NCBI RefSeq assembly: GCF_000337615.1
Contig: NZ_AOII01000041.1
Location: 1-64,000, forward strand
Length of the DNA stretch: 64,000 nucleotides
Direction of reading: 5' to 3'
DNA from: Natrinema pallidum DSM 3751
GTDB lineage: Archaea > Halobacteriota > Halobacteria > Halobacteriales > Natrialbaceae
Shown: piece after piece, positions 15,455 to 19,665 of the stretch
Layout: every line of letters begins with the position of its first letter
How positions within the stretch are numbered: position 1 is the stretch's first letter
Notes under the pieces: generated by a model
Database searches by the model: none
The model's input: the letters and a program-made list of their open reading frames with translations, nothing else
What the model was told of the DNA's origin: nothing
Position numbers and translations under genes: made by a program

Positions 15455-16345
15455 AGGGGCCAACGGTGCAGCGGGAGCGCTACCACCAATAACTCGTTAT
15501 CCCGCATAAACACTGTGCTGCCGCCGGCAGTCACGGATCGGTCGAAATTCAATATATCGTTACTTGGTTTATTGGTCGGATCGTCCGTCCCCGAGGGCAG
15601 ACGCTGAGGGCTCGAGACGGGGCCACGCGGCCGAAACCGATCGACAGCCGTTCCAACGGTATTGACGACCGAAAACGTCGGGAACCGACGGCCCGTCGAA
15701 ACAGGTCTCGCCGAAAGCCGGTTCGACGCCGCACTTCGACGGTGGCACGGTTCGAGTGCCCGTCGCAGTTCGATCCTCATGCGCTCTCACCCTGGGTTCG
15801 ACGACCGCGGATGGGAGAGGACGGGCCGCTCGAGAACTGCCGCGCGGGCGAGTTCGAGCGTGTCGATGGAACTCCGTGGACACCACGAGTTCGTCCGGGA
15901 ACTCGTCGATTCGGACCGTAGCCGGCCCGATGAGGTCGCCCGTGCGCTACCCAGAAGCAGGCGGTCAGCAGCCCTCCACCGGTCACTCGGAGCACTCGCG
16001 TCGCCGATGGCGTCGGAGTCGAATGGACAAACACCGTTCGCGCCGCTTCGCAAGACACTGGTGACGTGGCCGTGCTCGAGGCGATTCGCTGCGGTTCGTC
16101 CGCACCGAAAAGAGAACGATCAGCCGCGCGGGTCGGTTTGGTGGCCGAACTGCTCGCGAACGGTTGCACCACCGGCGATGCCGCAGGTCGCCCCAGAACG
16201 GTCGTGTGGAACGTCGGTCAGCGGCGCAAAGACTCGAGTTCCGAACCGGAAACGACGGAGCGGATCGACTTTCTGCCCGTGAATAAATTGTATATCGCTA
16301 CATGAAATTGCCGGTCGGCGTGCCAGGAATCGTCGCGGAGCGTGA
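15455..16345. other. Long region without a credible gene, possibly decayed coding DNA
   Basis: About 890 bases hold only open frames rich in arginine and serine with no family resemblance. Between 15860 and 16290 short stretches read like normal haloarchaeal protein but in different frames: MELRGHHEFVRELVDSDRSR from 15867, then VAVLEAIRCGSSAPKRE from about 16066 with VAELLANGCTTGDAAGR following. The change of frame suggests a decayed gene, perhaps a DNA-binding protein, but no identity can be given. The first 200 bases (15455-15660) look like the promoter region of the reverse PHP gene. Confidence 0.4.
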
Positions 16346-16396
16346 TTAGGCGGGCCTAAAATTCGGTGGACTTATCATGTTTTAGGTTAGCCTAAA
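16346..16396. promoter_or_regulatory. Two DtxR-type palindromic operators flanking a promoter
   Basis: TTAGGCGGGCCTAA at 16346-16359 and TTTAGGTTAGCCTAAA at 16381-16396 both have perfect six-base arms of the TTAGG/CCTAA type. The second matches the core of the bacterial DtxR iron-box, and haloarchaea have DtxR-family metal regulators (SirR, Idr types). Centres are 36 bases apart. A TATA-like CTTATCA at 16371-16377 lies between them, which would put the transcript start at or just after the second palindrome. Binding would block the promoter, so the genes that follow are probably repressed by metal. Confidence 0.75.
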
Positions 16397-16524
16397 TGAT
16401 AAGCGAGCGGTCCCCGATGGTACTGGTGAGAGCGGATAGCGGTAAACGGGCTTCAGTCCGACTCTCGCCGGCGCGAACGGTCGGGACGGCCGCGACGGAA
16501 CCCGAACACGACTGGAGGAAACCC

Positions 16525-17463
16525 ATGGTCGGAACGACACTCCGCGACATTCGAACCCACATCGAACGACTGGCCAGCGACGACGGGGAGTACTACGTCG
16601 TCTGTGCGCGCTCCGGCGAACGACCCGTGCCGGTCGCCGGGAAGCGGTTCGCGACCCGGACGGACGCGGCCGACGCCGCACAGGCGACCGAACAGTACCG
16701 CGCCGCGCTCCGACGGTACGATCCGCAGTTGCCGTTTTACGATCCGGTCGCCTGTCAGGAACGGCCGGCGGACGCGAACGCAGCGGCGCAGGCGGCCGGG
16801 GAGTCCAACGCTCCCACGCGAGCGCTTGGGAACGGCGATACCCAGACCACCCCGCCATCGGTCGATCGGGACCCCTGGGACGACAGCCCGTTGATCAGTT
16901 TCTGCCACGACGTCTCGGGGGCCGTCTTCGAGTCGCTCTCAGCCCGCGACCACGAGGACGCTGAGCGGGCGATCATGGAGACGTACATGGCCGCCGCCGA
17001 AGCGACGACCGACCGGAACACGCTCTGTCTGGTCTTGCTCGAGACCATGGCATCGGAGCTCGAAGCGCACCTCGAGACGGCCGAACGGATGCAGGTACTC
17101 CGGGCCGCGGCGACGAACCTCTCGCCGGTCGAACCGGCGGCCGATCCGGTGGAAGCGAGCCTCGCCTTTCTGGACTCGCTGTCGCTGATCCGGGAGTACG
17201 GCGTGACGCGGGATTCGACCGATTCGACGGACGGGACCGACGACGTCTGGACCGTCTCCCTGCGGGGCTACGCGATCGAGTGTGGCGAGTCCCGGTTTCC
17301 GACGCTGCCGATCGGGATCGATATTCTGCGACGGTCGGGAACGCCGGACGAACCGCTGGGCGTGACCGACGTCACCGCGCTCGGCGAAGGCGACTGGCAG
17401 TTCGTCCTGCGAAGCGATGCGACGGCGAGCGGACTCGTCTGTACGTGGGGGGAGCGTCAATGA
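16525..17463 (+). CDS. Uncharacterised haloarchaeal protein, first of a metal-box-controlled pair
   Basis: A 312-residue soluble acidic protein. The N-terminal 75 residues (VGTTLRDIRTHIERLASDDG, then YYVVCARSGERPVPVAGKRF, ending in YDPQLPFYDPVACQE) form a compact domain that I recognise as a recurrent haloarchaeal domain of unknown function. An alanine-rich linker follows, then a helical domain (LISFCHDVSGAVFESLSARD) and a C-terminal beta-rich part. The ATG at 16525 is decided by a strong Shine-Dalgarno GGAGGAA at 16514-16520; the in-frame ATG at 16396 overlaps an operator. A 130-base leader follows two DtxR-type boxes. The next gene overlaps its stop (ATGA). No catalytic motif is visible, and function is unknown. 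Confidence 0.8.
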   Translation: MVGTTLRDIRTHIERLASDDGEYYVVCARSGERPVPVAGKRFATRTDAADAAQATEQYRAALRRYDPQLPFYDPVACQERPADANAAAQAAGESNAPTRALGNGDTQTTPPSVDRDPWDDSPLISFCHDVSGAVFESLSARDHEDAERAIMETYMAAAEATTDRNTLCLVLLETMASELEAHLETAERMQVLRAAATNLSPVEPAADPVEASLAFLDSLSLIREYGVTRDSTDSTDGTDDVWTVSLRGYAIECGESRFPTLPIGIDILRRSGTPDEPLGVTDVTALGEGDWQFVLRSDATASGLVCTWGERQ

Positions 17464-18260
17464 CCGGATCGACCGCCGTTCATCGGGCACTCGACTGTGT
17501 CGACGAGGAACGGGCAGCCGTCGAGAAACGGGACGCGGCGTTCGAGGCGTTCGCACGGCGCGTTCGCGAAGTCCCGGCGGAGCGTCCCGCGGCCGCCCGC
17601 TCCCAGCAAGCGGTCGCAGCGACACCGGCGATGGCGACGACGGTTCAGACCGGGCGATCGACTACGACGGGCGATCGCTGTGTCACCGTTCGGGAGGCGT
17701 TCGCCGAAACCGTCCGTCCCCACAGTATCGCCGACTGCGAGGCGGACGAGTCGCTCACCGAGACGATCGCCGCGGAACTGAGCGAAGACATCGCCGTCGC
17801 GCTCGCGTCGGAAACGGGCTGGACGCCGCCGCTCAAACGGGCCGTCCTCGAGACGGTCGAGACCAGGCGAACGGAAGCAGACGTCGTCCAGCAAACCCTC
17901 CGGAGCGAGCGGGAGACGCTCACGGACGCCCGCGACGAGATCGACGACATCCTCGCGTGGCTCCAGTCGATGGCCGACGAGTCGCTCCTCCAACGTGACT
18001 TCGAGACGTTACGGGAGAACCACGATCGACTCGCGACCTATCGGGATCGACTCGAGACGCTCACGGCGGACCGACAGGCGCAGTTTACCCGCTCGACGAA
18101 CCGCTACGGACCGGGCGGGACCCGATATCGAACGCTGGTCGAATCCGTCTACTCGGACTGTGCGGTCCGATACCCGCTGCTCTCGAGCGCGACGCGGCTG
18201 TACGGGATCTGCGGTGACTGTCAGCGGACGGTTCGAGCGCACCTGTCGCGGCGCGTGTAA
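17460..18260 (+). CDS. Uncharacterised coiled-coil protein, second of the pair
   Basis: A 266-residue protein with no membrane helix. A helical N terminus (VHRALDCVDEERAAVEKRDAA) is followed by a variable segment, a conserved-looking domain starting VREAFAETVRPHS near residue 77, and a long heptad-type helix (residues about 150-210, TEADVVQQTLRSERETLTDA). The end carries a C-x2-C pair in YGICGDCQRTVRAHL, which with upstream cysteine could bind metal. The ATG overlaps the previous stop codon (ATGA), so the two genes are translationally coupled and fall under the same DtxR-type boxes. Similar proteins are confined to haloarchaea as far as I know; function unknown. Confidence 0.78.
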   Translation: MTGSTAVHRALDCVDEERAAVEKRDAAFEAFARRVREVPAERPAAARSQQAVAATPAMATTVQTGRSTTTGDRCVTVREAFAETVRPHSIADCEADESLTETIAAELSEDIAVALASETGWTPPLKRAVLETVETRRTEADVVQQTLRSERETLTDARDEIDDILAWLQSMADESLLQRDFETLRENHDRLATYRDRLETLTADRQAQFTRSTNRYGPGGTRYRTLVESVYSDCAVRYPLLSSATRLYGICGDCQRTVRAHLSRRV

Positions 18261-18903: not shown

Positions 18904-19221
18904 ATGGCCGACTTCGATCCCGAGAAGTTCGAGGACAAATACGCCAACTACTTCCCCGAACTCCAGCAGGCGTACAAGAACGCGTTCAACCGGATGAACG
19001 ACCGCTACGACTCCCAACTCGTCCACGCGATCGACCAGGAGGTGTTGAACGAGAGCGAACCGTTCTACGAGGGCGACGGCGAGTTCCGCGTCGAACTCCC
19101 CGACGAGCCCTACGATCGGCTCTCGGGTGTGCTCGTGGAAGAAGAACGATTCGACGATGTCTTGGAGACACACGTCGAGGAGATCGAGACCGAGCTCCGG
19201 CGAGTATTCGGGTTCAACTAG
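18904..19221 (+). CDS. Small conserved haloarchaeal protein (DUF5783-like)
   Basis: A 105-residue acidic protein starting ADFDPEKFEDKYANYFPELQ. It is predicted mostly helical, with aromatic residues and no cysteine or membrane segment. I recognise it as a conserved haloarchaeal family of unknown function, probably DUF5783. A T-rich promoter element (CTTTTGT, about 18874) lies 25-30 bases before the ATG. The NifU-like gene follows on the same strand after 78 bases. No function can be assigned. Confidence 0.8.
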   Translation: MADFDPEKFEDKYANYFPELQQAYKNAFNRMNDRYDSQLVHAIDQEVLNESEPFYEGDGEFRVELPDEPYDRLSGVLVEEERFDDVLETHVEEIETELRRVFGFN

Positions 19222-19299
19222 GGGGGTAGCCGTCGCCGACGCCGGCAGGCGAACATGGAGGACGGAAGGTTTAGGGGGGCTGATACCCAATGGATTTCC

Positions 19300-19665
19300 A
19301 TGAGCACGGAAACCCAGAACGACGGGGACGACCTCGAGGACCGCGTGACGAACTTCCTGCGACGGAACTTCCCGCAGATCCAGATGCACGGCGGCAGCGC
19401 AGCGATTCAGGACATCGACCGCGAGAGCGGCGAAGTCAGCATCGCCCTCGGCGGGGCGTGTAGCGGCTGCGGTATCTCGCCGATGACGATCCAGGCGATC
19501 AAGAGCCGGATGGTCAAGGAAATCCCCGAAATCGAGAAAGTCAACGCGTCCACCGGCATGGACGGCGGCGACGAGGAGATGGGCGGCATGAGTCCCTCCT
19601 TCCCCGGCGAGACCGTCGACGACGACGGCGGCAACGCCGACGAAGGACCGGAAGCACCGTTCTAA
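19300..19665 (+). CDS. NifU C-terminal domain (Nfu-type) iron-sulfur carrier
   Basis: A 121-residue protein of the Nfu family, which holds and delivers Fe-S clusters. The fold is clear: VTNFLRRNFPQIQMHGGSAA, then VSIALGGACSGCGISPMTIQ with the cluster-binding C-x2-C near residue 50, then IKSRMVKEIPEIEKV. The C-terminal 30 residues are a disordered acidic tail. ATG at 19300 is chosen because the family N terminus follows it, and a GGTTTAGG-type element lies about 30 bases upstream. The same window contains ferredoxins and a DUF59 protein, but no other SUF/NIF scaffold gene is adjacent. Confidence 0.92.
   Translation: MSTETQNDGDDLEDRVTNFLRRNFPQIQMHGGSAAIQDIDRESGEVSIALGGACSGCGISPMTIQAIKSRMVKEIPEIEKVNASTGMDGGDEEMGGMSPSFPGETVDDDGGNADEGPEAPF

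Follow-up and report, generated by a model that had tools for sequence, protein, structure and literature searches.

Paired DtxR-type boxes precede a DUF7552-DUF7551/DUF7260 gene pair that is very likely part of the iron-starvation response of Natrinema pallidum

The DUF7552-DUF7551/DUF7260 gene pair of Natrinema pallidum DSM 3751 is very likely part of the iron-starvation response. In the reading that we favor, to which we assign a probability of about 0.78, the pair is an iron-repressed operon whose products assist the handling of siderophore iron or its regulation. This reading is carried by the boxes in front of the pair, by a genome-wide iron regulon marked with the same box, by the deep conservation of the box before the DUF7551 family, and by operon links to siderophore-uptake and DtxR genes, all of which were directly observed.

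The promoter and the gene pair

An earlier note had placed two DtxR-type boxes flanking a TATA-like element at positions 16,346 to 16,396 of the window, i.e. of the whole stretch of 64,000 nucleotides that was analyzed. Both sequences are present exactly there (Table 1). As in a DtxR/Idr regulon, the promoter carries a palindromic TTAGGN4CCTAA operator, here as two exact copies starting at 16346 and 16382. They are the sole matches with fewer than two mismatches in the window, for which mononucleotide composition predicts 0.02 exact matches. Box 1 is an imperfect palindrome with 12 of 14 positions pairing and a mismatch at the center. The core of box 2, TTAGGTTAGCCTAA (16382-16395), agrees without a mismatch with bases 1 to 14 of the classical 19-bp DtxR consensus TTAGGTTAGCCTAACCTAA (PMC7762939), which bears out the likeness claimed for it earlier. 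The boxes are spaced 36 bp start to start, and the gap of 22 bp between them contains CTTATCAT. In archaea, the TATA box is located about 25 bp 5' of the transcription start; thus, box 2 would cover the start region and box 1 would lie upstream of the BRE. A pair of repressor sites placed in this way would presumably keep TBP/TFB and polymerase off the promoter and could provide the tight metal-dependent control that had been anticipated for a double operator.

Table 1. Features of the promoter and the gene pair in the window
Feature	Position	Strand	Remarks
Operator box 1, TTAGGCGGGCCTAA	16346..16359	.	5' of TATA/BRE region; exact TTAGGN4CCTAA match
TATA-like element, CTTATCAT	16371..16378	+	In the gap between boxes 1 and 2
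Operator box 2, TTTAGGTTAGCCTAAA	16381..16396	.	Over the expected transcription start region
Probable untranslated leader	16397..16524	+	Shine-Dalgarno GGAGG at 16514-16518
Gene 1, DUF7552 (PF24422) + DUF7551 (PF24420), 312 aa	16525..17463	+	Pfam; start MVGTTLRDIR
Gene 2, DUF7260 (PF23921), 266 aa, helical	17460..18260	+	Pfam

The start codon of gene 2 overlaps the stop codon of gene 1 (ATGA). Relatives of the gene 1 protein from different genera start with M[VI]GTTL, corresponding to the ATG at 16525 in the window. Counted from the core box, the leader measures 129, 128, and 127 nt in the closest relatives, i.e. it differs by single-base indels that break the frame, and the GGAGG before the start of gene 1 is kept in most relatives. 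Because of these single-base differences and the retained GGAGG, 16397-16524 was read as an untranslated leader. A leaderless start at the ATG at 16396, right after box 2, would extend the protein by 43 residues and was rejected on account of the conserved MVGTTL and the frame-breaking indels. Thus, the ATG at 16396 is probably not a start codon, and gene 1 probably begins at 16525. Relatives have leaders of anywhere between 0 and about 140 nt, and no Rfam match indicative of a structured RNA was found in the leader.

The gene 1 protein contains the near-invariant residues Cys27, Cys127, His128, Glu136, Glu147, Tyr154, Glu159, and Cys168. Conserved in the gene 2 protein are Cys74, His188, Cys251, Cys254, and His261, with a CxxC-x6-H motif at the C terminus. 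Such conserved Cys, His, and Glu residues would suit the binding of a metal or an Fe-S cluster. In Pfam and NCBIfam, neither protein belongs to any family besides its DUFs, and a sequence search against solved structures (PDB) gave no match for either. The AlphaFold2 models were of good confidence (mean pLDDT 87.4 for the gene 1 protein and 83.5 for the gene 2 protein) but had no significant match to a known fold. The best PDB fold matches of the gene 1 model, chains of soluble guanylate cyclase (E 0.037, probability 0.51, TM 0.23), were not significant and were too weak to be relied on; the DUF7551 protein had no Pfam match at E<5 to HNOB/V4R, the H-NOX/V4R-type ligand-binding fold. Thus, the earlier description of a pair without known function holds, in that no functionally known relative was found by fold or sequence. 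No paper naming these DUFs was found in the literature searched, and an earlier listing of the operon in regulon papers is possible.

With regard to the surroundings in the window, about 870 bp between a PHP-domain gene and box 1 (15470-16340) contain no convincing gene. The pair is followed in the genus by a DUF5783 gene and a NifU-like gene (18904-19665 in the window). NifU-like genes also occur near DUF7551 in six genera, including Halovenus, Halogeometricum, and Haloprofundus.

The box regulon and its conservation

In the Natrinema genome (3.9 Mb), 24 exact TTAGGN4CCTAA sites were found, as opposed to a single site for the reversed-pattern control and about 1.4 predicted from composition. 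When one mismatch was allowed, the signal fell into the background (32 versus 49); exactness therefore matters, and one-mismatch boxes were dropped as genome-wide evidence in favor of the exact sites alone. The genes adjoining the 24 exact sites were called and scanned for families. Six units of FecB-type binding protein or FecCD carry boxes, among them FecCD and FecB units on contig C20 and FecB-type binding proteins on contigs C68, C74, C89, and C109. Further boxes are located at a ferric-type solute-binding protein with its permease (C69), at an ABC ATPase with a TOBE domain (C45), and at a class III aminotransferase and its partner gene (C40), which may be of siderophore type by analogy with dat/bdb of Haloferax (PMC11349517). 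A DtxR N-domain gene (C101), an HVO_A0261-type regulator (C68), a DUF5059-plastocyanin protein, a methyltransferase, glycosyltransferases, and a gluconate-dehydrogenase-type gene are boxed as well; the box on C73 lies near the contig end. The motif scan before metal genes that the earlier note had called for thus placed the box at genes for siderophore uptake, siderophore-biosynthesis-type genes, ferric ABC genes, and a DtxR paralogue. The box is enriched before the iron-acquisition genes of its own genome, as in a DtxR/Idr regulon, and because the targets with recognizable function are mostly iron genes, the boxes are a genuine iron regulon signal of DtxR type. Across the class, the box was present in 242 of 242 haloarchaeal genomes sampled, with 2969 sites in total.

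Some boxed genes are worth recording for themselves. Four boxes occur within 11 kb of contig C69 (L023:2476-13500) around glycosyltransferases, the ferric-type ABC operon, and the gluconate-dehydrogenase-type gene, possibly an iron-controlled cell-surface or redox cluster. On contig C26 (L017:2531-4999), a DUF5059-plastocyanin lipoprotein gene follows a pair of boxes, one of them with one mismatch. In Halorubrum (L182 and L187), the gene immediately 5' of DUF7551 encodes a homologue, and the lipoprotein therefore probably belongs to iron acquisition. An ORF of 55 residues (L026:2555-2722; homologues in L146, L177, and L200), located downstream of a box and near Dps/ferritin, is a small conserved uncharacterized protein of the box regulon.

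Conservation of the operator was followed before DUF7551 orthologues. Each of the 13 same-genus genomes examined has the exact double box, with its 36-bp spacing, in front of the orthologue. Orthologues from Natrinema and Haloterrigena keep the TATA-like element in the 22-bp gap, and those from other genera have TATA-like sequences at the corresponding site. The ATG follows box 2 immediately (CCTAAAATG) in Halosimplex, Halorussus, Halorientalis, and Halopiger goleimassiliensis, where a TATA-like sequence lies just upstream of the box and a leaderless start is implied. In a separate collection of 80 named loci, which has some genomes in common with the same-genus set, an exact box was present within 400 bp of the DUF7551 start in 52 and two boxes in 20. 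The 658 kb of flanking DNA contained 46 other boxes and none for the reversed control. A box lies further upstream in approximately 19 of the remaining 28 loci, as read by hand from the table, and such distal boxes typically precede a FecB gene or another gene of the operon containing DUF7551. As evident from these loci, spacing is nearly fixed, with 24 of the 25 box pairs within 60 bp being 34-36 bp apart. Together with the footprinting, this recurrence supports a double operator across the promoter. Counting against the favored reading, some Haloferax and Halogeometricum genomes contain one DUF7551 paralogue beside Trk-type genes that is not preceded by boxes. DUF7551 is encoded in 142 of the 242 genomes; its absence from 100 marks it as accessory, not essential.

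Genes for FecB, FecCD, FecE, a thioredoxin-reductase-like FAD protein, or Dps were found within about 4 kb of DUF7551 in 36 of 80 loci and 22 of 34 genera. Across the 97 genomes in which both families were looked for, 17 of 49 cases have DUF7260 downstream of DUF7551 and in the same orientation. Outside the genus, the direct or close neighbors of DUF7551 also include homologues of other boxed genes from the Natrinema genome (DUF5059, 58% identity; GT2, 73%; the methyltransferase, about 33-39%; also the 55-residue ORF). Genome-wide regulon, phylogenetic footprinting, and gene neighborhoods agree in linking the boxes to the iron response.

DtxR-family proteins and alternative explanations

As expected for a DtxR/Idr regulon, the genome encodes at least three DtxR-family regulators, located on contigs C91, C45, and C101. 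The 226-aa protein from C91 is the only one of the three with canonical metal ligands. Its ligand motif EADRLEH has Asp where DtxR and IdeR have Cys, a position linked to metal choice. C45 (L213:1246-1677) encodes an Idr-like DtxR of 144 aa whose ligand positions are altered and whose C terminus is rich in Cys (CPDCFDAEQDCC); nearly all members of the class appear to have this form. The third protein, a short paralogue of 124 aa (C101, L028:1246-1617), has a box of its own that would be autoregulatory. Its aligned ligand positions read ETYVVLS and EAMALTG; the R-H-H-R..E and H..EA..LEH pattern is absent, the locus gave no PF02742 match, and it thus does not have the dimerization-domain ligands of a canonical metal-sensing DtxR. 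Profile scores for the short DtxR split into a high group, present in 89 of 242 genomes, and a lower group. A short DtxR as the sole reader of the box was rejected, because boxes were found in 153 genomes that lack it.

Chance palindromes, or sites of a regulator unrelated to metals, are a most improbable explanation of the boxes. The imperfect center of one box and the loss of signal at one mismatch would fit it, but chance would not produce 24 exact sites against one, the 34-36-bp spacing, retention in every congener and in many further genera, and iron genes as targets. A manganese response, with the boxes under MntR/TroR-like control, is improbable too. It could draw on the Asp in place of Cys in the only DtxR with intact ligands, but the recognizable targets are iron and siderophore genes, and none of the genes adjoining the 24 sites was seen to encode a manganese transporter. 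With targets in siderophore uptake (FecB/FecCD), ferric ABC transport, and biosynthesis of siderophore type, iron is favored over manganese.

The main rival is of a different kind. The pair might be a regulatory module in which the DUF7551 and DUF7260 proteins relay a signal of iron or redox state to the ligand-less short DtxR and so tune the box regulon. Linkage is consistent with this: wherever the high-group short DtxR is linked to DUF7551 (14 cases) or to DUF7260 (7 cases), its gene lies directly downstream and in the same orientation. It is also commoner in genomes with DUF7551 (80 of 142) than in those without (9 of 100; Fisher p 5e-15, uncorrected for relatedness), and the median number of boxes per genome, likewise uncorrected for shared ancestry, is 19 where both are present and 7 where neither is. 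The missing His, Glu, and Cys ligands of the short DtxR and the conserved Cys and His residues of both proteins of the pair would suit such a relay. On the other hand, the short DtxR of the window genome is encoded on another contig, many DUF7551 loci contain transport genes and no DtxR, and no known sensory fold was recognized. We consider a purely regulatory function rather unlikely and favor an iron-repressed accessory function in the use of siderophore iron.

Proposed function and comparison with known systems

In the favored model, an iron-signaling DtxR-family repressor of the Idr/SirR/TroR type would occupy both boxes around the BRE/TATA element in iron-sufficient cells. Box 1, just 5' of where TFB and TBP bind, and box 2, across the start region, would together shut out the basal factors. 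Upon iron starvation the repressor would leave, and the DUF7552-DUF7551 gene followed by the DUF7260 gene would be transcribed, their translation being coupled. The products would most likely assist siderophore-iron uptake from within the cytosol, e.g. by binding the imported ferric complex or the released iron next to an FAD reductase. Alternatively, they might serve the regulation of uptake together with the short DtxR paralogue. Iron repression, the repressor's identity, and what the products do biochemically are the inferred elements of this scheme.

Haloarchaea import siderophore iron, and its fate inside the cell as well as the division of work among DtxR paralogues are poorly known. We tentatively propose that DUF7551-DUF7260 and the ligand-less short DtxR may form a previously undescribed haloarchaeal module of iron handling or sensing, switched on by the box that it helps to control and supplying either the release of siderophore iron inside the cell or the iron signal that the short DtxR cannot bind. 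A widespread family tied to an iron box, FecB-type uptake, and a ligand-less DtxR offers a concrete and testable entry point. The promoter itself, as judged from its sequence, would be a clear archaeal design, with two repressor sites 34-36 bp apart and a TATA element between them.

A recurrent same-strand neighbor of DUF7551, the thioredoxin-reductase-like FAD protein, is presumably comparable to FAD-dependent ferric-siderophore reductases of the IruO type. Its genomic context suggests a siderophore-reductase role; unlike in those loci, the gene is not beside the pair in the window. The closest known system is the haloarchaeal DtxR-type iron regulon (Idr1/Idr2 in Halobacterium; Idr, SirR, and TroR with the ferR signal in Haloferax; PMC11349517). 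It likewise has boxes, apparently of the TTAGG-N4-CCTAA type, before FecB/FecCD and siderophore genes and several DtxR-family regulators per genome, but the DUF7551-DUF7260 operon is not named among the targets in the texts consulted. In Haloferax, the ferR regulon signal is carried by all fhu siderophore-uptake genes and operons, and iron starvation raises the level of several Fhu proteins (PMC11349517). A keyword search of passages on the Haloferax iron-starvation proteome returned no DUF7551 protein by name. The actinobacterial DtxR/IdeR box of 19 bp shares its first 14 positions with box 2. It differs from the operator described here, a palindrome of 14-16 bp that is paired at 34-36 bp around an archaeal TATA/BRE, whereas actinobacterial DtxR/IdeR promoters have bacterial -10/-35 elements. 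Box and regulon type are thus already known, and the new part is the role of this gene pair.
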